DNA of 50,133 nucleotides, from the NCBI GenBank assembly GCA_905181825.1, contig CAJIZJ010000028.1, positions 1-50,133 of the forward strand, read 5' to 3'. The number at the start of each line of letters is the position of its first letter. Within the stretch, counting starts at the first letter, position 1. Positions 26,775 through 37,038 of this stretch are shown here, one piece after another. The notes under the pieces were generated by a model. That model was given only the letters and a program-made list of their open reading frames with translations. It ran no database searches and had not been told where the DNA came from. A program made the translations under genes and the position numbers. The stretch comes from an uncultured Flavobacteriaceae bacterium (GTDB lineage Bacteria; Bacteroidota; Bacteroidia; Flavobacteriales; Flavobacteriaceae).

Positions 26775-27608
26775 ATGAAGTCAAATTTTTTTTCTGTTCT
26801 GTCATTGGTTTTTATTTTTCTAATCTCTACAAGTGTAGATACAATTAAATCTACTCAAGAGTTTCAAGCAAGAGCCTATTATTTTTCTAAATCTAAAATG
26901 GAATTAGGAAATTGGGGCGCTAGGTTAAGCGAAGCTCAGAAAAAGGAAATCGAAGCGCGCATGAAAAATAGACTTGAAAAAGGGTATGTGTTATCATTTA
27001 ATAAAGAAGAATCTTTGTTTGTTGAAGAAGATCAGCTAGATGCTATTTCAGGTGCTACGGATTCATGGGGTAAAAATTTTGCTCCCGGAAAACAATACAA
27101 AAATGTTAAATCGAACACACAGCTACAAGAACAAGAGTTTTATGGGAAAAAGTTTCTTGTCAATGATGTATTGCAACCGATAGAGTGGAAACTTGAATCG
27201 GACTCTAAAAAAATCGGTAATTACGATTGTTTTAAAGCCACTGCATCAATTCCTACCAATGATCTAACATGGTATTCATTTTCGTGGGATAAGTTAAAAG
27301 ATACGAACGAAACAGAAAACGACTCCACACAAACAAAAGAAATTAAGATGACACTAGTGGAAGCGTGGTATGCTCCGCAAATACCTGTGCGTCATGGTCC
27401 TTTAGAGTACTGGGGTCTTCCAGGTTTGATTTTAGAAGTAAGTGCGGATAATACAACTATGTTATGCTCAAAGCTAGTTCTTAACCCTGATGAAGTCATT
27501 GAAATTAAAGCACCCAGCAAAGGAAAAGAAGTGACTAAGCTAGAATATCAAGCCATAATCAATGAAAAAATGGTAGAGTTTAGAAATAATCGAATGCAAC
27601 GTCGTTAA
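26775..27608 (+). CDS. GLPGLI family exported protein
   Basis: This 277-residue protein belongs to the GLPGLI family, a Bacteroidota-specific group named after the motif seen here as WGLPGLILEV (about 215-224). It begins with a hydrophobic export signal (about 1-20). The remainder is a probable beta-rich domain with YDCFKATAS and a tryptophan-rich LTWYSFSWD. The family function is unknown; members are often in the envelope. It stands alone between galE and the arginine region. Confidence 0.85.
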   Translation: MKSNFFSVLSLVFIFLISTSVDTIKSTQEFQARAYYFSKSKMELGNWGARLSEAQKKEIEARMKNRLEKGYVLSFNKEESLFVEEDQLDAISGATDSWGKNFAPGKQYKNVKSNTQLQEQEFYGKKFLVNDVLQPIEWKLESDSKKIGNYDCFKATASIPTNDLTWYSFSWDKLKDTNETENDSTQTKEIKMTLVEAWYAPQIPVRHGPLEYWGLPGLILEVSADNTTMLCSKLVLNPDEVIEIKAPSKGKEVTKLEYQAIINEKMVEFRNNRMQRR

Positions 27609-27797: not shown

Positions 27798-27893
27798 ATG
27801 AACTTACATAATTATAAAACCATCTTTACAACACTGGCTACTCCTTGTAGCCCAGGTTTTATATTTTCTCGCGTTAAGCGCTGTCGCCCTTAG
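27798..27893 (+). CDS. Candidate arginine leader peptide, 31 residues
   Basis: This short frame lies 91 bases before the first gene of the arginine operon. It runs from ATG to TAG and ends SRVKRCRP, with three CGC arginine codons and one lysine codon among the last seven codons. Arginine codons clustered just before the stop of a short frame, upstream of arginine synthesis genes, are the hallmark of a leader peptide at which ribosomes stall when charged tRNA-Arg is scarce. The frame overlaps a hairpin (27834-27855). No Shine-Dalgarno is visible, which is normal in this phylum. I found no matching leader in memory, so the call rests on codons and position. Confidence 0.5.
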   Translation: MNLHNYKTIFTTLATPCSPGFIFSRVKRCRP

Positions 27894-27932
27894 GGTGTCT
27901 ATGTAGTTTCTGAACTTAGGTGTGTCCGGGTT
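27834..27932 (+). promoter_or_regulatory. Candidate attenuator structure in the arginine operon leader
   Basis: A strong hairpin at 27834-27855 pairs CTGGCTAC with GTAGCCCAG, with one bulged C and a five-base loop. A smaller hairpin (CGCCC-TTA-GGGTG, 27885-27897) covers the last arginine codon and the stop of the leader frame. An alternative pairing of AGCCCAGG (27849-27856) with TCCGGGTT (27925-27932) would break the first hairpin. No T-run terminator follows, so control would have to use Rho or translation rather than a classic intrinsic terminator. Confidence 0.35.
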
Positions 27933-27984
27933 CCCATTTCAATTTCTTTCAAACAATTCATTTTATCAATTTAAATCTTAAATA

Positions 27985-28602
27985 ATGAATATCATTATTA
28001 CAGATAAGTCACATACAATTCACGCGCATACTATATGTCAAGCTATTGAAGCAGCAGCACAAGTAAGAGGAACAGGAATTGCCAAGCGTTCTCCAGAGTA
28101 TATTATTTCAAAAATACAAAATGGCAATGCAGTTATTGCTTTAGAGGGTACTACGTTTGCGGGCTTCTGTTACATAGAAACTTGGAGCCATGACAAGTTT
28201 GTAGCAAATTCTGGTCTTATCGTTGTTCCGGAATTTAGAAATCAAGGATTAGCTAAGAGAATTAAGCAAGTAGTTTTTGAGCACTCAAGAACCAAATATC
28301 CAACTGCAAAAATTTTTAGTATAACTACTGGTCTCGCGGTCATGAAGCTAAATAGCACCCTTGGTTATAAGCCGGTTACTTTTTCGGAACTCACCAACGA
28401 ATCTAGCTTTTGGAAGGGCTGCCAGACATGCAAAAATTACGATGTACTTCAGCGAACATCTGAAAGTATGTGTTTATGTACCGGAATGTTATTTGACCCC
28501 AAGTCAGAACTATCAAACAACTCTGAGAAAGTTAAAGAAAAAACATTTCTAAGATTAAAAAGTATCAAGCAAAGCTTGTTTCTAAAAAAAAATAAAAAAT
28601 GA
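27985..28602 (+). CDS. GNAT acyltransferase, probable N-acylglutamate synthase (ArgA role)
   Basis: This GNAT-fold protein has 205 residues. The acyl-CoA pyrophosphate loop appears as FRNQGLAKR (84-92). As first gene of the arginine operon, where no other argA or argJ occurs, it most likely makes N-acetyl- or N-succinyl-glutamate, the first committed step. After the GNAT core there is an unusual extension with Cys146, Cys149, Cys163 and Cys165 (CQTC and CLC), which could bind zinc, and then a lysine-rich tail. Its stop codon overlaps the argG start by four bases (ATGA), so translation is coupled. Confidence 0.75.
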   Translation: MNIIITDKSHTIHAHTICQAIEAAAQVRGTGIAKRSPEYIISKIQNGNAVIALEGTTFAGFCYIETWSHDKFVANSGLIVVPEFRNQGLAKRIKQVVFEHSRTKYPTAKIFSITTGLAVMKLNSTLGYKPVTFSELTNESSFWKGCQTCKNYDVLQRTSESMCLCTGMLFDPKSELSNNSEKVKEKTFLRLKSIKQSLFLKKNKK

Positions 28603-29792
28603 AAAATTTAAAAAAATTAGTAATCGCCTACAGTGGTGGTTTAGATACCTCTTACTGTGCAGTATCCTTATCCAAACAAGGGTATGAAGTACATGCTGTA
28701 AGCGTCAATACTGGAGGCTTTTCTAAAAATGATATTAAAACTATTGAGGAGAATGCCTATAAGATGGGAGTTTCGACCTACAAAAATATAGAAGCTTTAG
28801 CTACCTTTTATCAAAAAGTAGTCAAATACTTAATTTACGGAAATGTCTTAAAAAATAATACCTACCCTCTCTCTGTCAGTGCCGAGCGGATTGTACAAGC
28901 GATTGAAATTATTGAGTATGCCAAGTCAATTAACGCTAAATTTATAGCACACGGGAGTACAGGTGCTGGCAATGATCAAGTTCGTTTTGATATGATTTTT
29001 CAAACGCTGGCACCAGAAATTGAAATTGTCACACCCATTAGAGATCAAAAGCTAACAAGGCAAGAAGAGATTACTTATTTAAAATCTAATGGAATTGATT
29101 TGGATTGGGATAAAGCAAAGTATTCAATAAACAAAGGCTTGTGGGGTACAAGTATTGGGGGCGATGAAACGCTAACGTCTCACTTGGCATTGCCAGAATC
29201 GGCCTATCCTTCCCAGTTAAAAACAGAATCTCCTCAAACTATCTCGCTCACTTTTATAAAGGGTGAGTTAACGGCTATAGACGGAAAAGCAAATTCTCCT
29301 GAAGTGCTAATTCAACAGCTTAATGACGTAGGTTCAAATTTTGCTATTGGAAGGGATATTCATGTAGGAGATACCATTGTAGGTATTAAAGGGCGCGTAG
29401 GATTTGAAGCTGCTGCTGCTCTTATTACAGTCAAAGCCCATCACTTACTTGAAAAACATACATTAACCAAGTGGCAACTTCAGCATAAAGATCAGCTGTC
29501 TAACTTTTATGGAATGCATTTACATGAGGGTCAATATTTGGATCCTGTTATGCGCGACATAGAAGCGTTTTTAATCTCCAGCCAAACAAGTGTTTCTGGA
29601 GATGTAGAGGTGGTGCTGAAGCCCTATCATTTTGTCATTAACGGGGTTAATTCTCCTTTCGATTTGATGAACGCGAAGTTTGGGAGCTATGGAGAAGTTA
29701 ATTCTGGTTGGACTGCTGAAGAGGCTAAAGGCTTTATTAAAATTAACGGCAATCAAAATAAAATTCATCAACAAGTAAATTCAGACGCATGA
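28599..29792 (+). CDS. argG: Argininosuccinate synthase
   Basis: ArgG condenses citrulline and aspartate with ATP. The N-type ATP pyrophosphatase loop SGGLDTS lies at 12-18. The family segments AHGSTGAGNDQVRF (about 122-135) and PIRDQKLTRQEE (about 147-158) are both present. The 397 residues are normal. It overlaps the GNAT gene and argC by four bases each. Confidence 0.95.
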   Translation: MKNLKKLVIAYSGGLDTSYCAVSLSKQGYEVHAVSVNTGGFSKNDIKTIEENAYKMGVSTYKNIEALATFYQKVVKYLIYGNVLKNNTYPLSVSAERIVQAIEIIEYAKSINAKFIAHGSTGAGNDQVRFDMIFQTLAPEIEIVTPIRDQKLTRQEEITYLKSNGIDLDWDKAKYSINKGLWGTSIGGDETLTSHLALPESAYPSQLKTESPQTISLTFIKGELTAIDGKANSPEVLIQQLNDVGSNFAIGRDIHVGDTIVGIKGRVGFEAAAALITVKAHHLLEKHTLTKWQLQHKDQLSNFYGMHLHEGQYLDPVMRDIEAFLISSQTSVSGDVEVVLKPYHFVINGVNSPFDLMNAKFGSYGEVNSGWTAEEAKGFIKINGNQNKIHQQVNSDA

Positions 29793-30766
29793 TACAAGCA
29801 GGAATTATAGGAGGTGCTGGTTATACAGCTGGAGAATTAATTAGATTATTAGTAGGACACTCTAAAGTTCATATTAACTTTGTGTATAGTACTTCTAGTG
29901 CTGGTAAAAAAATAAGTACAATCCATCAAGATTTAGAAGGGACCACTAATCAATTGTTTACAGACTTAATTAAAACAGATATAGATGTTTTATTTCTTTG
30001 TTTGGGACATGGAAATTCTAAAGTATTTTTAGAAAAAAACACGTTTTCCAAAACTACTAAAATAATTGATTTATCCAATGACTTTAGATTAACAGAAGCT
30101 GCTGTTTTTCAAAATATGCCATTTGTGTATGGCCTGCCGGAATTAAATAAATTAGCCATACAATCTGCTCAATATATTGCTAATCCAGGTTGCTTTGCAA
30201 CCGCTATTCAATTGGCAATTTTGCCTTTGGCAGCCAATAGCTTAATTAAGGATGCCATCCATGTCAATGCTGTTACAGGTGCAACAGGAGCGGGGACGGC
30301 CTTATCGCCTACGACTCATTTTGCATGGCGGGTAGATAACTTTTCACATTACAAAGCATTTAACCATCAACATCTAGGAGAAATTCATCAATCTGTAAAT
30401 TCACTTCAACAAGATTTGCAAAGTGTGATTCATTTTATCCCAAACCGAGGCAATTTCTCTAGAGGAATATTTGCTACTATTTATACAGCCTACGAAGGTA
30501 CTTTGGAAACTGCTATATCCCTTTTTAAAAACTATTATAAGGAAGCAGAGTTTACTTTTATTTCTGACACCAGTATTCACTTAAAACAAGTCGTGAATAC
30601 CAATAAATGTTTACTTCACTTAGAAGTGCATGATGGTCAGCTACTCGTAACCAGTGTCATTGATAATTTACTCAAAGGTGCTTCTGGTCAAGCAGTACAA
30701 AACATGAATTTGATGTATGGGTTCGAAACCCATTTAGGACTACAGTTAAAAGCAAATTATTTTTAA
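29789..30766 (+). CDS. argC: N-acyl-gamma-glutamyl-phosphate reductase
   Basis: ArgC reduces the N-acylated glutamyl phosphate to the semialdehyde with NADPH. The nucleotide-binding GGAGYTAGEL is at 8-17 and the catalytic cysteine is Cys135 in NPGCFATAIQ. VTGATGAGT and the later HRGxFS-like NRGNFSRGI follow. The 325-residue length fits. It is coupled to argG by a four-base overlap, and the SET gene begins three bases after its stop. Confidence 0.95.
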   Translation: MIQAGIIGGAGYTAGELIRLLVGHSKVHINFVYSTSSAGKKISTIHQDLEGTTNQLFTDLIKTDIDVLFLCLGHGNSKVFLEKNTFSKTTKIIDLSNDFRLTEAAVFQNMPFVYGLPELNKLAIQSAQYIANPGCFATAIQLAILPLAANSLIKDAIHVNAVTGATGAGTALSPTTHFAWRVDNFSHYKAFNHQHLGEIHQSVNSLQQDLQSVIHFIPNRGNFSRGIFATIYTAYEGTLETAISLFKNYYKEAEFTFISDTSIHLKQVVNTNKCLLHLEVHDGQLLVTSVIDNLLKGASGQAVQNMNLMYGFETHLGLQLKANYF

Positions 30767-30769
30767 ACT

Positions 30770-31063
30770 ATGAGCTATAAACCACTACCATTAGGGCTGA
30801 CCATTTCAAAATCTAAGATTGAAGGACTTGGCTTGTTTGCAACACAACGGATTTTAAAAAATACTGTTTTAGGTATAATCCATATCCATGATTCTCGTTT
30901 TGAAAACAATTGTATCAGGACCCCATTAGGAGGATTTATTAATCATAGTGAAGATCCGAATTTACAAACCTATTCAGAAAAGGATTTTAAATATATAAAA
31001 ACAATAAAAGAGGTTACAACAGCAGAAGAGTTAACCTTAAAATACACCCTATATAAATTATGA
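30770..31063 (+). CDS. Small SET-domain protein inside the arginine operon
   Basis: This 97-residue protein is almost entirely a minimal SET domain. The three recognisable SET motifs are GLGLFA at 19-24, GGFINHSEDPN at 54-64 and EELTLKYTLY at 86-95; they normally bind S-adenosylmethionine and position the target lysine. It lacks pre- and post-SET regions and is shorter than most SET proteins. A protein lysine methyltransferase activity is inferred from the fold only. It lies between argC and proC with a three-base gap and a four-base overlap, so it is translated with the arginine enzymes. Confidence 0.75.
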   Translation: MSYKPLPLGLTISKSKIEGLGLFATQRILKNTVLGIIHIHDSRFENNCIRTPLGGFINHSEDPNLQTYSEKDFKYIKTIKEVTTAEELTLKYTLYKL

Positions 31064-31854
31064 AAATAGCTATCATTGGAACCGGAAATTTAGGAAGCTC
31101 TATTGCAAAAGGGCTTATAAAAAATAATGCCATTACCACTTTATATCTCACTAAGAGAAATGTTAATGATTTAATTGATTTTGAAGGCTATCAAAATGTG
31201 TTTTTAACAGCTGATAATAAAGAAGCCGTTCAAAAGTCTGATATTATTATTTTGGCTGTTCAGCCGGCTCATTTAGAGAATATACTAAATGAGATCAACT
31301 TGTTTTTAACAGAAAAGCATGTTTTAATATCAACCATAACAGGGTTTTCAATTTCCAGAATAGAAAGTCTTGTAGGAGCTCACCAATTTATCATTCGGGC
31401 CATGCCCAATACGGCTATTGCAGTGGGGAAATCTATGACGTGCCTTTGCAGTAATAAGATTGGGGCTCAACGCCTAGCTATTGCTGAAGCAATCTTTAAC
31501 CGTTTGGGAACTACCATAGCCATTCCAGAACAGCAAATGCAAGCTGCTACGGTTGTGTGTGCTAGTGGAATTGCTTTTTGGATGCGTTTAATTCGTGCCA
31601 CTACACAAGCTGCAATTCAGCTAGGTTTTGATGCCAAAGAAGCTCAAAACCTAGCCATGTTTACTTGTGAAGGTGCGGCTAATTTGTTAATCACTTCAGG
31701 AAATCATCCAGAACAAGAAATTGATAGAGTGACTACTCCAAATGGCTGTACTATCGAAGGACTTAACGAAATGGAACACAAAGGATTGAGTTCTTCTCTT
31801 ATTCAGGGTATGGTCGCTTCCTTTGAAAAAATTAATAGTATTAAAGCCCACTAA
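31060..31854 (+). CDS. proC: Pyrroline-5-carboxylate reductase
   Basis: ProC reduces pyrroline-5-carboxylate to proline. The Rossmann motif GTGNLGSSIAKG is at 7-18, and the family signature around RAMPNTAIAVGKSMT lies near 113-127. The 264 residues are normal, and the C-terminal HPEQEIDRVTTPNGCTIEGL matches the usual dimer region. Placement inside an arginine operon is known in several Bacteroidota and links proline with arginine flux. It overlaps the SET gene by four bases. Confidence 0.92.
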   Translation: MKIAIIGTGNLGSSIAKGLIKNNAITTLYLTKRNVNDLIDFEGYQNVFLTADNKEAVQKSDIIILAVQPAHLENILNEINLFLTEKHVLISTITGFSISRIESLVGAHQFIIRAMPNTAIAVGKSMTCLCSNKIGAQRLAIAEAIFNRLGTTIAIPEQQMQAATVVCASGIAFWMRLIRATTQAAIQLGFDAKEAQNLAMFTCEGAANLLITSGNHPEQEIDRVTTPNGCTIEGLNEMEHKGLSSSLIQGMVASFEKINSIKAH

Positions 31855-31856
31855 TT

Positions 31857-32981
31857 ATGAGTTTATTTGATGTGTATCCACTTTTTGACGTAACACCCGT
31901 AAAAGCCGACGGTGTTTTTTTATATGATGATACTGGAACACAATATTTGGATTTGTATGGTGGTCATGCGGTGATTTCAATAGGGCATTCACATCCTGTT
32001 TATGTAAATGCATTAACGGATCAACTTCACAAGATTGGGTTTTATAGCAACGCCGTTCAGAATCCAATTCAAAAGCGCTTAGCAGACCGTCTTGAACAGC
32101 TTTCTGGCTGTGCCGGTTATAACTTGTTTATGTGTAGCTCAGGAGCAGAGGCCAATGAAAATGCTTTAAAGTTAGCTTCGTTTCATACCGACAAAGCAAC
32201 TGTGATAGCATTTGACAATTCTTTTCATGGGCGTACTTCAGCTTGTGTGGCTGCGACGGATAATAAAAAAATTATCGCGCCATTAAATGCCCAACAACAA
32301 GTACGCTTCTTTCCTCTAGGGAATTTAGAACTGGTTGAAGAGACTTTAAAATCAGAACCTGTTTGTGCCATTATTATTGAGTGTATTCAAGGGGTTGGTG
32401 GCTTGGATGAAAGTACTACAGAGTTTTATCAAGGCTTAGAATTGTTATGTAATAAGTACAATACTATTTTAATTGCTGATGAGGTTCAATCAGGTTTTGG
32501 ACGAACTGGAGACTTTTTTGCATTCCAAAAACACGGAATTACTCCTCACATTATTTCAATGGCCAAGGGAATGGGGAATGGCTTTCCTGTGGGAGGAATT
32601 CTTATTCATCCTTCAATAAAAGCGGCTTATGGATTATTGGGAACCACTTTTGGAGGGAACCACTTGGCTAGTACTGCCACTCTAGCAGTTTTAGATGTTT
32701 TAGAATCAGAGAAATTAATGCAAAACGCCAAAGAGATGTCTGCTTACTTTATTAAAAAAGCCAAGACAATCTCTCAGTTAAAACAACTTAAAGGTCGTGG
32801 TTTAATGTTGGGTTTAGAGTTTAATTTTCCGGTAGCTGAACTTCGTAAAAAACTTCTTTTTGACCATTTTTTATTTACAGGAAGCTCCAAGAACCCCAAT
32901 CTGATTCGGATTTTACCACCATTAACAATTCAAACGGAACATATCGATACATTTTTTAATGCTTTATCTAAAGAATTATGA
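31857..32981 (+). CDS. argD: N-acylornithine aminotransferase
   Basis: ArgD is a class III pyridoxal-phosphate aminotransferase that converts the N-acyl glutamate semialdehyde to N-acylornithine. The cofactor lysine is Lys237 in SMAKGMGNG, with IADEVQSGFGRTG upstream at about 206-218 and GGNHLAS near 262. The 374 residues are slightly short for the class but complete. It starts two bases after proC and overlaps the transcarbamylase gene by four bases. Confidence 0.92.
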   Translation: MSLFDVYPLFDVTPVKADGVFLYDDTGTQYLDLYGGHAVISIGHSHPVYVNALTDQLHKIGFYSNAVQNPIQKRLADRLEQLSGCAGYNLFMCSSGAEANENALKLASFHTDKATVIAFDNSFHGRTSACVAATDNKKIIAPLNAQQQVRFFPLGNLELVEETLKSEPVCAIIIECIQGVGGLDESTTEFYQGLELLCNKYNTILIADEVQSGFGRTGDFFAFQKHGITPHIISMAKGMGNGFPVGGILIHPSIKAAYGLLGTTFGGNHLASTATLAVLDVLESEKLMQNAKEMSAYFIKKAKTISQLKQLKGRGLMLGLEFNFPVAELRKKLLFDHFLFTGSSKNPNLIRILPPLTIQTEHIDTFFNALSKEL

Positions 32982-33913
32982 AACACTATTTAACTCTTAA
33001 CGACCTTACGTCAATTGAAACTGCAATTCAGGAAGCTATGGCGTTAAAATCAGATCCTTACAAGTATAAATATTTAGGCGCTCAAAAAACTTTAGTCATG
33101 TTGTTTTTTAATGCCAGTCTTCGAACTCGTTTAAGTACCGAGAAAGCTGCTAAGCACTTAGGGATGGAGGTTATTGTATTAAATGTTACTGATTCTTGGC
33201 AATTAGAATTTGAAGCTGGGGTTGTTATGAACTTAGAGAGTTCTGAACACGTTAAAGAAGCGGCGCAAGTGATTTCTCAATATGCTGATATTTTAGCAGT
33301 GAGAGCATTTCCTTCTTTGAAAAATAAGGAAAAGGATCAGTCTGAATGGATTCTAACTAGTTTTGTTAAATATGCGACGGTTCCAGTTGTAAACATGGAA
33401 AGTGCCACAGGCCATCCGCTTCAAGCATTAGCAGATGCGATTACGATTGAAGAATTAAAAACAAAGAAAACGCCTAAGGTCGTCTTATCTTGGGCGCCCC
33501 ATCCTAAAGCATTGCCACATGCAGTGGCTAATTCATTCATTGAAATGATGCAAGCTAGTGACGTTAATTTTAGTATCGTACACCCCCAAGGTTATGATTT
33601 AGATCCCAACATTGTAAAAGAAACTCCAGTAAGCTATTTACAAGACAAAGCACTAGAATCCGCTGACTTTGTATATGTTAAAAACTGGAGTAATTATCAG
33701 GCATATGGAGAGGTCACTTCTCAAGATGCTAGTTGGATGATGACCAAACAGAAGCTAGGGTCCGCTATTTTCATGCATTGCTTGCCTGTGAGACGGAATG
33801 TAGTAGTAGAAGATGCTGTCTTAGATAGTGAGCAATCTGCAGTGATCATGCAGTCAAATAATAGAACTTATGCGGCACAGCTAGTGTTGAAAAAAATTCT
33901 GGAAAATGGATAA
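32978..33913 (+). CDS. argF': N-acylornithine (acetyl- or succinyl-) transcarbamylase
   Basis: This is a transcarbamylase of the acylornithine type, which carbamoylates N-acetyl- or N-succinyl-ornithine instead of ornithine. The carbamoyl phosphate site FFNASLRTRLST is at 43-54, and HCLPVRRN lies near 270. The sequence is close to the Bacteroides fragilis succinylornithine enzyme as I recall it (for example SLRTRLST, TWAPHP-like and FMHCLPVRRN). At the residue known to separate acetyl from succinyl specificity (Glu in Xanthomonas, Pro in B. fragilis), this protein has Ser89. Its start overlaps argD and it ends eight bases inside argB. Confidence 0.88.
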   Translation: MKHYLTLNDLTSIETAIQEAMALKSDPYKYKYLGAQKTLVMLFFNASLRTRLSTEKAAKHLGMEVIVLNVTDSWQLEFEAGVVMNLESSEHVKEAAQVISQYADILAVRAFPSLKNKEKDQSEWILTSFVKYATVPVVNMESATGHPLQALADAITIEELKTKKTPKVVLSWAPHPKALPHAVANSFIEMMQASDVNFSIVHPQGYDLDPNIVKETPVSYLQDKALESADFVYVKNWSNYQAYGEVTSQDASWMMTKQKLGSAIFMHCLPVRRNVVVEDAVLDSEQSAVIMQSNNRTYAAQLVLKKILENG

Positions 33914-34694
33914 AAAGAAAACACTTAAGATTATTAAAATAGGAGGGAATGTTATTGATGATCCAATGGCTCTCAAGTCATTTCTCAGAACGGTATCCAC
34001 AGTTCAGGGGCCCAAGATTCTTGTTCATGGGGGTGGTAAATCAGCGACTGCCTTGGCTGAACAAACGGGGCTTAAAGTGAAAATGATTGAAGGAAGACGT
34101 GTTACAGATGCTGTAACTCTAGAACTCATTACTATGGTGTATGCAGGTAAAATTAATAAAAGACTGGTGGCGCAGCTGCAAGCATTAAAATGTAATGCTA
34201 TTGGGTTTACTGGTGCGGATGGTAATACTATTAGTGCAGAAAAACGACCAGTATCATCCATAGATTATGGCTTTGTTGGGGATGTTAAAAACGTCGAAAC
34301 TTCAACTTTACATTTGCTGCTAAAACAGAGCATTTGCCCTGTTTTTTGTGCCATAACACATGACAATAAGGGCCAGCTTTTAAATACCAATGCCGACACA
34401 ATAGCTTCCGAATTAGCAATTGCATTTGCTAATCAATACCAAGTCGAACTCTATTACTGTTTTGAGAAAAAGGGGGTTTTAAAAGATATTAACGACGATA
34501 ATTCTGTGATTCAAACGATCACTAAATCGTCTTATAAAAAATTATTAGAGACCCAATTAATATTCTCTGGAATGTTACCGAAATTAAATAATTGCTTCCA
34601 TGCGTTAGAACAAAATGTTTCTAAAGTTTGTATTGGAACTCCAGAAATGTTGCTTAATTCAGAATCAATTTTCACAACACTCACTATAAAATGA
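33906..34694 (+). CDS. argB: N-acylglutamate kinase
   Basis: ArgB phosphorylates the gamma-carboxyl of N-acylglutamate. The amino acid kinase fold shows KIGGN at 11-15 and HGGGKSATALA at 41-51, and the C-terminal SGMLPKLNN segment is characteristic. The 262 residues match the family. The start ATG at 33906 overlaps the end of the transcarbamylase gene by eight bases. The enzyme is often feedback-inhibited by arginine in linear pathways, which cannot be judged from sequence here. Confidence 0.94.
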   Translation: MDKKKTLKIIKIGGNVIDDPMALKSFLRTVSTVQGPKILVHGGGKSATALAEQTGLKVKMIEGRRVTDAVTLELITMVYAGKINKRLVAQLQALKCNAIGFTGADGNTISAEKRPVSSIDYGFVGDVKNVETSTLHLLLKQSICPVFCAITHDNKGQLLNTNADTIASELAIAFANQYQVELYYCFEKKGVLKDINDDNSVIQTITKSSYKKLLETQLIFSGMLPKLNNCFHALEQNVSKVCIGTPEMLLNSESIFTTLTIK

Positions 34695-35755
34695 ATTTAG
34701 AAAACCTATCCGAAGCCGCTATTCAATTATTAAAAGATCTGATTGAAATTCCTTCGTTCTCATCTGAAGAACAGCACACTGCGAAACGTATTGAAGAGTG
34801 GTTCAACGTTAATGACATCCCGTTTAAACGCAACCAAAACAACATCTGGGCAGTTAATAAATTTTTTGATGTATCAAAACCATCCCTATTATTAAATTCC
34901 CACCACGACACCGTCAAACCCAATAATGGCTACACCAAAGACCCCTTTAAAGCAATTGTCGAAGCAGGCAAACTTTATGGATTGGGAAGTAATGATGCCG
35001 GTGGTTGTTTAGTGTCTTTAATGGCTACATTTACGCATTTTTATGCACAAAAAGATCTTAATTATAATTTAGTGGTTGTAGCCTCTGCGGAAGAAGAGAG
35101 TAGTGGTAATGCGGGATTAAATAGCATGCTACCGATTATTCCAAAAATAGATGTTGCGATTGTAGGAGAACCTACGCTCATGCAATTGGCGGTTACGGAA
35201 AAGGGATTGGTGGTCTTTGACGCAGTTGTAAAAGGAACACCTGGGCATGCCGCTCACCCTAATACAGATAATGCTATTTATAATTCAATCAAAGTTCTGG
35301 AATGGTTTAAGGATTTTGAGTTTAAAAAAATATCAGACTCATTAGGACCTGTAAAATTGACAGTCACGCAAATCAATGCTGGAAAGCAACACAATGCGAT
35401 TCCTGCTGGGGTTAGTTTGGTTGTTGATGTTCGTGTTAATGACCAATATAGCAATTTAGATATTGCTGATATTTTGCAAAAATCAGCCCCCTGCGATTCC
35501 ATTATTCCAAGAAGTCTACGGCTTAATTCGTCTTTTATCCCTCTTGAGCATCCGCTTGTTCAAGCAGGTATTGAAATAGGACGTGAAACCTATGGGTCGC
35601 CAACGCTATCTGATCAATCTGTTTTAAGTTGCCCTTCCTTAAAATTAGGTCCTGGTGATAGTACACGTTCACATACTGCTGATGAGTTCATTTATATCAG
35701 TGAAATAGAAGAAGGCATTGCATTATATATTCAATTATTAACTAAAATATTATAG
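34691..35755 (+). CDS. argE: N-acylornithine/citrulline deacylase (M20 family)
   Basis: This is an M20 zinc hydrolase. In acylornithine-transcarbamylase pathways it removes the acyl group from N-acylcitrulline. Metal ligands are His71 and Asp73 in NSHHDTVKP, Asp102 in GSNDAGG and Glu134-Glu135 in SAEEESSG, with GEPT and a late SHTADEF. The dimerisation domain lies around 175-290. The 354 residues are near the normal range. The deacylation product (citrulline) is the ArgG substrate, consistent with the operon content. It overlaps argB by four bases. Confidence 0.9.
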   Translation: MNLENLSEAAIQLLKDLIEIPSFSSEEQHTAKRIEEWFNVNDIPFKRNQNNIWAVNKFFDVSKPSLLLNSHHDTVKPNNGYTKDPFKAIVEAGKLYGLGSNDAGGCLVSLMATFTHFYAQKDLNYNLVVVASAEEESSGNAGLNSMLPIIPKIDVAIVGEPTLMQLAVTEKGLVVFDAVVKGTPGHAAHPNTDNAIYNSIKVLEWFKDFEFKKISDSLGPVKLTVTQINAGKQHNAIPAGVSLVVDVRVNDQYSNLDIADILQKSAPCDSIIPRSLRLNSSFIPLEHPLVQAGIEIGRETYGSPTLSDQSVLSCPSLKLGPGDSTRSHTADEFIYISEIEEGIALYIQLLTKIL

Positions 35756-35757
35756 CT

Positions 35758-37038
35758 ATGAAACTTTGGGATAAAGGATTTTCAATTGATGAATTTATTG
35801 AAAAATTTACTGTTGGTAACGACCGGGAAATCGACCTTAAGATTGCCGCTTATGATATTCAAGCTTCGCTTGCGCACGCGCAAATGTTGGAAGAAATAGG
35901 GCTTTTAAATCCGTTAGAACTTAAAGGGGTTGAAGGGGTATTTGAAACGCTTCAGTCACAGCTTAGTAAAGGCACTTTTGTTATTGATGCACAGTTTGAA
36001 GATATACACTCTAAATTAGAATATGAACTGACCAAAGCCTTAGGGGACACGGGTAAAAAAATACATACAGCTCGTTCAAGGAATGATCAGGTTTTAGTGG
36101 CTTTGCAATTGTATTACAAGGCTAATTTGAAGACCATACAAGGCAAGACTAAAGTACTGTTCAACACTTTAATTGACTTAGCAGAAACGCATAAAACGGC
36201 TTTACTACCAGGCTATACCCATTTACAAGTAGCTATGCCCTCGTCTTTTGGTTTGTGGTTTTCTGCTTATGCAGAATCTCTTATAGACGACGTATATGTA
36301 CTTCAGGCGGCTCAAAAAGTAGTGGATCAAAATCCTTTGGGTTCTGCGGCTGGGTATGGAAGTTCATTTCCAATTGATAGAGCATATACGACCAAAATAC
36401 TTGGATTTGAGACCTTAAAATACAATGTAGTGGCTGCTCAAATGAGCCGTGGAAAAAACGAGCGTATTATTGCGTCTGGTCTAGGTAATTTGGCCCATAC
36501 CCTAGGGAAAATGGCCATGGATATTTGCTTGTACATGAGTCAAAACTTTGATTTTATCGGCTTTCCTGAAACTCTTACGACTGGGAGTAGTATCATGCCC
36601 CACAAAAAAAATCCAGATGTTTTTGAACTGATTCGTGGTAAGTGTAATAAGCTTCAAAGTTTAGAAGCTGAGATGCTTTTGATTACCAATAATTTACCGA
36701 GTGGATACCATCGGGATTTTCAATTATTAAAAGAAAATATGATTAAGGGCTTTGAAGAATTAGAAGCTATTTTAGATATTTTTAATTATTCTATTCAGCA
36801 AATTCAAGTTAAAAAAATTGATTTGAAGGATCCTAAATACCACTATTTATTTACTGTAGACAGCATCAATTCCTTAGTAATTCAGGGGAGGTCTTTTAGA
36901 GAGGCCTATCAAACTATAGGGGCTCAAGTGCAAGCGGGAACTTACAAATCAGATAGCCGTATTCCGCATACTCATTTAGGGAGTATCCATAATTTGTCGT
37001 TAAATGAAATTAAAGAAAAATATCCATTTTGTAATTAA
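35758..37038 (+). CDS. argH: Argininosuccinate lyase
   Basis: ArgH releases arginine and fumarate, the last step of the pathway. The fumarase/aspartase superfamily loop GSSIMPHKKNPD (about 278-289) and the earlier HTARSRNDQV near 100 are both present, as is GYTHLQVAMP near 155. The 426 residues are slightly shorter than usual. It starts two bases after argE and is the last gene of the ten-gene run; no clear terminator follows within the 19-base gap to the converging gene. Confidence 0.95.
   Translation: MKLWDKGFSIDEFIEKFTVGNDREIDLKIAAYDIQASLAHAQMLEEIGLLNPLELKGVEGVFETLQSQLSKGTFVIDAQFEDIHSKLEYELTKALGDTGKKIHTARSRNDQVLVALQLYYKANLKTIQGKTKVLFNTLIDLAETHKTALLPGYTHLQVAMPSSFGLWFSAYAESLIDDVYVLQAAQKVVDQNPLGSAAGYGSSFPIDRAYTTKILGFETLKYNVVAAQMSRGKNERIIASGLGNLAHTLGKMAMDICLYMSQNFDFIGFPETLTTGSSIMPHKKNPDVFELIRGKCNKLQSLEAEMLLITNNLPSGYHRDFQLLKENMIKGFEELEAILDIFNYSIQQIQVKKIDLKDPKYHYLFTVDSINSLVIQGRSFREAYQTIGAQVQAGTYKSDSRIPHTHLGSIHNLSLNEIKEKYPFCN

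Follow-up and report, generated by a model that had tools for sequence, protein, structure and literature searches.

A conserved arginine-codon leader with two RNA hairpins, probably a ribosome-read arginine sensor, precedes the arginine operon of Flavobacteriaceae

The arginine operon of an uncultured Flavobacteriaceae bacterium is preceded by a short open reading frame with terminal arginine codons and by two RNA hairpins, one over the stop codon of the frame and one just downstream. Judging from sequence comparison, this leader is quite likely a cis-acting arginine sensor that is read by the ribosome, of the leader-peptide attenuation kind. Comparison of relatives shows the frame, its arginine codons, the hairpins H1 and H2, the position before the GNAT-argG genes, and the absence of ArgR matches. 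The leader element is real and conserved, stands before the arginine genes of many marine flavobacteria, and is probably functional; it probably switches these genes on when arginine runs out. The original prediction, an arginine-codon leader in front of an arginine operon, is supported by conservation in the family. The stretch of DNA that was analysed, hereafter the window, is 50,133 nucleotides long and contains the following features:

27798..27893, + strand: leader peptide frame, 31 codons and TAG, open in 90 of 91 loci
27836..27852, + strand: hairpin H0 inside the frame, GGCTACTCCTTGTAGCC, z below -2 in 34 of 66 leaders
27870..27890, + strand: control codons CGC GTT AAG CGC TGT CGC CCT, encoding RVKRCRP; the consensus end is RRRP
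27885..27897, + strand: hairpin H1, CGCCCTTAGGGTG, z below -2 in 64 of 66 leaders
27912..27934, + strand: hairpin H2 with the nearly invariant top GGTG(A/T)GTCC (GGTGWGTCC); double changes at four stem pairs
27935..27984, + strand: 50 bases without G that reach the GNAT start; predicted to be unstructured and to resemble a rut site only in composition
27985..28602, + strand: GNAT acetyltransferase, first gene of the operon
28599..29792, + strand: argG, argininosuccinate synthase, by best NCBIfam match, below the curated cut-off
29789..37038, + strand: argC, proC, argD, N-acetylornithine carbamoyltransferase, argB, ArgE/DapE deacylase, and argH, the rest of the operon

The leader frame runs from ATG to TAG and translates as MNLHNYKTIFTTLATPCSPGFIFSRVKRCRP. 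Three CGC codons (27870, 27879, and 27885) lie within its last seven codons, and 91 bases separate its stop from the GNAT start at 27985, in agreement with the original prediction in length, distance, and codons. The hairpins that had been noticed inside the frame and over its stop correspond to H0 and H1; the second downstream hairpin, H2, had been overlooked. The window copy is atypical in that a cysteine replaces the last-but-one arginine (RCRP), the sole cysteine at that position among 91 loci. The first 143 nt of the leader are predicted to fold more stably than all 200 dinucleotide shuffles (z -2.94). A sigma-70 scan returned two sites, versus 2.4 in shuffles. The gene preceding the leader (26775-27608) encodes a GLPGLI/Porph_ging family protein.

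The designation of the downstream genes as an arginine operon is borne out by their best NCBIfam matches, which are above cut-off for argC, proC, argB, and argH, and below it for argG, argD, N-acetylornithine carbamoyltransferase, and ArgE/DapE. The GNAT product probably performs the acyl-transfer step of the arginine pathway. Between argC and proC, positions 30767-31059 form a gap of nearly 300 bases inside the operon without an open reading frame of 100 amino acids, possibly a second regulatory site.

Conservation was assessed in GNAT upstream regions from the best 80 of 579 relatives' contigs, which are hence close relatives, and in 15 same-genus loci from the 14 of 18 same-genus genomes with a match, the window's own included. 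The element is present in all 95 fetched loci, counting the window's copy and three pairs identical over the last 300 nt. One contig labelled as uncultured Rhodobacteraceae (G015; L004 and L092) bears the operon of the same flavobacterial genus, and its label looks wrong. Counts out of 91 refer to loci with enough sequence, after removal of duplicates and of the truncated L090. Over the 24 codons that precede the last arginine, the frame is open in 90 of 91 loci; each of the two alternative frames is open in far fewer, 27 and 11. A selection rule for the start codon gave ATG in 61, TTG in 26, and GTG in three of 90 loci, and found no start in L037. The TTG codons overlap, by eye, a promoter-like TTTG, and the true start of those loci is therefore doubtful. 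By the same rule, the frame measures 31 codons in 30 loci and 26-28 codons in 39 loci, within a range of 25-38.

Single-base codon differences among 13 same-genus copies are synonymous and nonsynonymous in a ratio of 347:545 in the frame, versus 198:669 and 152:746 in the other frames. The excess is clearest in the last 33 nt (187:104 versus 66:227 and 6:305); the first 30 nt show none (36:243 versus 72:183 and 41:262). Arginine occupies the last three arginine positions in 67, 86, and 91 of 91 loci, the 91 by construction, as the last arginine is the anchor. Proline follows the last arginine in 82 of 91 loci, and the stop comes next in 82 of 91; in nine loci the stop does not directly follow the codon at the proline position, and the frame runs past it. 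Residues ahead of about the last ten vary between genera, and the N-terminal half is poorly conserved. The leader arginine codons are CGC or CGT in 372 of 398 cases, versus 192 of 712 in the GNAT genes of the same loci, a preference that is partly forced by the pairing of H1. The 31-residue peptide, a short query, has no Pfam match at E 0.001.

By sequence comparison, the leader has the short upstream frame, conserved as a frame, and the run of end-product codons near its end that characterize a leader-peptide attenuator. The original prediction expected relatives to keep the frame, its start codon, and its terminal arginine codons, with synonymous changes, and family relatives do so. A missing or frameshifted frame, which would speak against a leader, occurs in at most one of 91 loci, a set drawn from the 80 closest relatives and the genus; more distant copies sometimes differ.

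The three hairpins differ in conservation. The sequence of H0 varies by lineage, and the hairpin is significant in about half of the leaders. In H1, the last arginine and proline codons (CGCCC) pair with GGGTG after the stop, which places the stop codon in the loop. One H1 pair changes from C-G to A-U in six of 86 rows with letters. Some relatives replace CGCCC/GGGTG with CGCAC/GTGCG, which keeps the pairing and turns the proline into threonine. Of 91 loci, 70 have GGTGAGTCC as the top of H2 and 21 have GGTGTGTCC; the truncated L090 has GGCGTGTCC. The distance between the stop and this top is 26-30 nt in 82 of the 91 loci and 2-18 nt in the nine with a later stop. At one H2 stem pair, 28 of the 80 rows that have letters there show A-U in place of C-G, pairing kept. 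H2 is only weakly more stable than shuffles, with z below -2 in 24 of 66 leaders. The GGTGWGTCC motif occurs once in the window's genome.

Covariation was evaluated with a covariance model, R1, which was built from 19 hand-chosen rows (A2), since the first alignment (A1) misplaced the gaps of the H1 loop. The resulting alignment A3 holds 92 matches, 89 of them distinct, and, being fitted to the structure of R1, leans to it. On A3, 97.5% of H1 and H2 cells pair, double changes occur at five of 13 pairs, and double-change cells number 58 versus 14.2 in shuffles; sliding the partner destroys the signal. Pair changes are visible in the raw sequences too. The covariance that had been named as a check on the leader is thus seen for both downstream hairpins on an alignment fitted to the model, on which H1 also provides conserved RNA structure over the control codons, as in leader-peptide attenuators. 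A DNA operator was considered and rejected, as G-U pairs and the asymmetric H2 top speak for RNA. Rfam gave no match at gathering score in the window, and seven weak matches far below gathering scores. AGGTGA in H2 might in principle pair with the anti-Shine-Dalgarno sequence; 21 of 91 loci carry AGGTGT or its like.

R1 matches 18 of 392 sampled genomes of the phylum, the window's own counted, all of them in the family Flavobacteriaceae and all with the element directly before GNAT-argG. Across the family it matches 125 of 199 genomes (124 of 198 genera); the position next to GNAT-argG is that of the 18 matches in the phylum sample. Of the 74 family genomes without a match (54 of their handles were inferred), 14 have a GNAT match and 60 have none. 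Judging by the GNAT search alone, arginine auxotrophs may therefore be numerous among these genera. With filters off, five of the 14 hold divergent copies (L117, L118, L119, L122, and L124; E 1e-5 to 0.005), with H2 tops of GGTGTGCCC in L118 and GGTGCGTCC in L122. L116 is marginal (0.018), and the rest score 0.13 or worse. Leaders in this group end in PRRRIRE (L120) and FRRRRCRE (L121), with AGA, CGA, and AGG codons, and in YPRRP (L116), FYTRR (L125), RSFRPLS (L126), and FRRRLLA (L127). No leader with two arginines near its end was found in L123 and L129, and L128 has merely an unlikely one.

Genomes of group g2, presumably Flavobacterium, have no credible R1 match. Of the 12 examined, 11 share a different conserved frame, such as MNKISLHITSLSRTNSPITSPEVRTLSL, in which two CGG codons are invariant; L151 differs. 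In the 11 (L147, L149, L150, L152-L155, and L157-L160), the leader contains TSPEVR with its two CGG arginine codons and ends 224-250 nt before GNAT.

Beyond the family, GNAT matches occur in 164 of 392 phylum genomes. We inspected 70 loci, composed of 59 upstream stretches hand-chosen to spread over families and a further 11. A first, loose screen for leaders found 38 of 70 on the forward strand, 23 on the reverse strand, and 18.8 in shuffled sequences. A strict screen accepted only frames that were 15-75 codons long, had their end 90-175 nt upstream of GNAT, and carried three or more arginines in the last ten residues; 12 g2 and three argR loci were left out of the 70. Arginine-rich leaders precede GNAT in 25 of the remaining 55 loci; the reverse strand gave four, and dinucleotide shuffles gave 2.2 (sd 1.5). 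They concentrate in families f24 (11 of 11), f8 (3 of 3), f4 (5 of 6), and f3 (3 of 4), and occur at about chance level in the other loci (3 of 31). The leaders of these four families are unlike in sequence and have no match to R1. Several f24 leaders end in PRRR-stop. Six leaders of this family (L188, L189, L191, L192, L194, and L214) carry PRRR or RRR at or near the end, mostly as CGG and CGA codons, and inspection by eye shows a short hairpin after them whose sequence changes; they may represent an independent attenuator design.

The ArgR domain PF02863 was found in none of the 199 family genomes by a search that detected it in eight of 14 controls; the window's own genome, which is 77% complete, has no match either, so that the ArgR that would define an ArgR-regulated operon was not seen there. 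In the phylum sample, the domain occurs in 130 of 392 genomes. GNAT carriers with ArgR are only G247, G255, G363, G366, and G399, and the marginal G050, whose match scores 25.0 bits, equal to the cut-off, and has a stop inside. In G255, G363, and G399, both matches lie on one strand, and the distance from the end of the ArgR match to the GNAT match downstream is 125, 113, and 56 nt, respectively. The argR gene thus occupies the place of the leader in all three genomes with coordinates for both genes. From this position, and from the absence of ArgR matches in the family, the leader and ArgR seem to exclude each other. In other families, neither was seen in many GNAT carriers.

We looked for the output of the leader in terminators, alternative pairings, and base composition. 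The original prediction held that the leader lacks an intrinsic terminator, and a scan of the window found no terminator-like site 3' of the frame; the one site inside the frame is at H0, which, followed by CAGGTTTTAT, scored as terminator-like and is by eye absent from the Muricauda/Allomuricauda group. An intrinsic terminator at H2 was rejected, as that group has no U-tract. A long-range alternative pairing had also been proposed; the predicted fold of the window's leader contains it, joining the 5' end of the frame to the stretch after H1, and neither folds nor the covariation scan gave a conserved counterpart. In the window's genus, only single folds pair the leader 5' end with H2 or with the bases ahead of H2.

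Folding of 66 leaders, free and ribosome-masked at four positions, together with partner probabilities and an all-column covariation scan of A3, revealed no conserved antiterminator for H2 beyond its own arm. The scan also gave column pairs outside H1 and H2 (e.g. 23-61, with nine double changes), which were read as group effects of G-U-tolerant columns and rejected as helices. The mean probability of H2 is 0.48 in free and 0.51-0.54 in masked folds, and it exceeds 0.5 in 28 of 66 free full-leader folds; H2 is predicted not to respond to ribosome position. The loss of H1 under the mask is by construction. The mutually exclusive terminator and antiterminator hairpins of a trp-type attenuator were not found, neither as a conserved alternative pairing nor as a terminator-like site after the window frame.

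The stretch between H2 and GNAT is predicted to be unstructured (mean z +0.44 over 66 loci). In the window (27935-27984) it contains no G and eight C, and its mean composition over 91 loci is 17.7% C and 4.6% G. In 74% of 66 loci, C outnumbers G at least two to one in the 60 nt before GNAT, a stretch that includes some of the H2 arm; among 95 control upstream regions the share is 28%. Rho-dependent termination is our guess from base composition; the C bias fits Rho without proving it.

We infer translation, stalling, the direction of the response, the participation of Rho, and the role of H2, as follows. The leader peptide would be translated while the mRNA is being made. With ample charged tRNA-Arg, the ribosome would pass the terminal Arg-Arg-(Arg)-Pro codons, terminate at the stop in the H1 loop, and depart. 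H1 could then fold and the operon would be shut off, most likely by Rho, which would load onto the unstructured, G-poor RNA that separates H2 from the GNAT gene. Under arginine shortage, the ribosome would stall at the terminal arginine codons and sit on H1. The stalled ribosome would protect the transcript or keep RNA polymerase coupled, and the operon would be expressed. H2 is probably a pause or factor-binding hairpin.

The strongest competing explanation, which we regard as possible though clearly less probable, keeps the sensor and moves its output to translation or mRNA stability: H1 and H2 would govern GNAT translation or RNase access, as the hairpins of Salmonella orf34-speF do. Two hairpins at and just past the stop, as in orf34 (PMC6386406), favour it, as do the nearly fixed spacing from stop to H2 and the lack of a terminator-like site after the window frame. 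However, 50 nt separate the end of H2 from the GNAT start in the window, and since these are predicted to be unstructured, no sequestration of the start site is seen.

It is improbable that the RRRP-stop peptide itself arrests the ribosome by sensing free arginine or ornithine in the tunnel, like TnaC or SpeFL. The terminal Arg-Arg and Pro-stop are retained in most loci, and the latter recalls TnaC, which has a proline before its stop. Against arrest, each genus has its own residues ahead of roughly the final ten, proline gives way to threonine where H1 keeps its pairing by a C-G to A-U change, and nine of 91 frames run past the proline position. Codon sensing is favoured over peptide arrest for two reasons: conservation of the N-terminal part does not extend across genera, and the proline and stop change with H1.

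Still less credible is a ligand-binding riboswitch made of H1 and H2, specific for arginine or a pathway intermediate, with the frame being secondary. The nearly invariant GGUGWGUCC top, the covarying stems, and the location before one operon in all 18 matches examined would suit it, whereas frame conservation with synonymous excess, the small structure without an Rfam match, and the arginine-rich leaders of other families without a match to R1 would not. A functional small protein acting in trans would explain the conserved open frame, yet we consider it very unlikely given a length of 25-38 codons by the start rule, a poorly conserved N-terminal half, no Pfam match, and a 3' end constrained by RNA pairing.

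To our knowledge, the control of amino-acid synthesis in Bacteroidota is poorly known, and the ribosomes of these bacteria largely ignore Shine-Dalgarno sequences. With codon sensing by the ribosome as the preferred reading, we tentatively speculate, at somewhat less than even confidence, that arginine-codon leaders govern arginine synthesis in ArgR-less Bacteroidota lineages in the place of argR, and that they have arisen or diverged several times with different arginine codons. In Flavobacteriaceae, the signal would exit through a new hairpin with a nearly invariant GGUGWGUCC top, recognized by Rho, RNA polymerase, or some other factor, and not through an intrinsic terminator. Such a sensor, widespread in a family where ArgR was not detected and built on a defined RNA element, offers a directly testable attenuator without an intrinsic terminator. 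The R1 model finds the element in new genomes, and the phylum lends itself to comparing how a repressor and a leader control the same operon.

A literature search of the main texts of openly available papers returned no description of the GNAT-argG leader element. Attenuators of the trp and his type have leaders with control codons for the operon's own amino acid. The leader described here resembles them in carrying such codons before a biosynthetic operon, and differs in that no pair of intrinsic terminator and antiterminator was found and in that its control codons lie in the hairpin of the stop codon. Leader-peptide attenuation has been proposed before amino-acid operons of Flavobacterium psychrophilum, a member of the same family, in a general statement that names neither arginine nor the H1/H2 element (PMC9723704). 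Short frames in 5' UTRs of Bacteroides thetaiotaomicron, also of the Bacteroidota, have been compared with leader peptides; the example is a hypothetical gene, and the word arginine is absent from the main text (PMC7366714). The eight-codon leader rbfL of Staphylococcus aureus senses arginine limitation through its arginine codons; it overlaps the ribosome-binding site of its target, acts translationally, and represses a biofilm regulator at low arginine (PMC13009471). The nearest known system in logic, by analogy, is orf34-speF of Salmonella. It differs in controlling ornithine decarboxylase, in the position of its arginine codons (12-13) away from the stop, and in belonging to another phylum (PMC6386406). 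The Pfam search at E 0.001 with the short window peptide showed no relation to the orf34/SpeFL family (DUF2618). The consecutive arginine codons of orf34 sense arginine by ribosome pausing and Rho is involved; as in the flavobacterial leader, a short frame stands upstream of a gene of arginine or polyamine metabolism, with one hairpin at its stop and another just downstream (PMC6386406).
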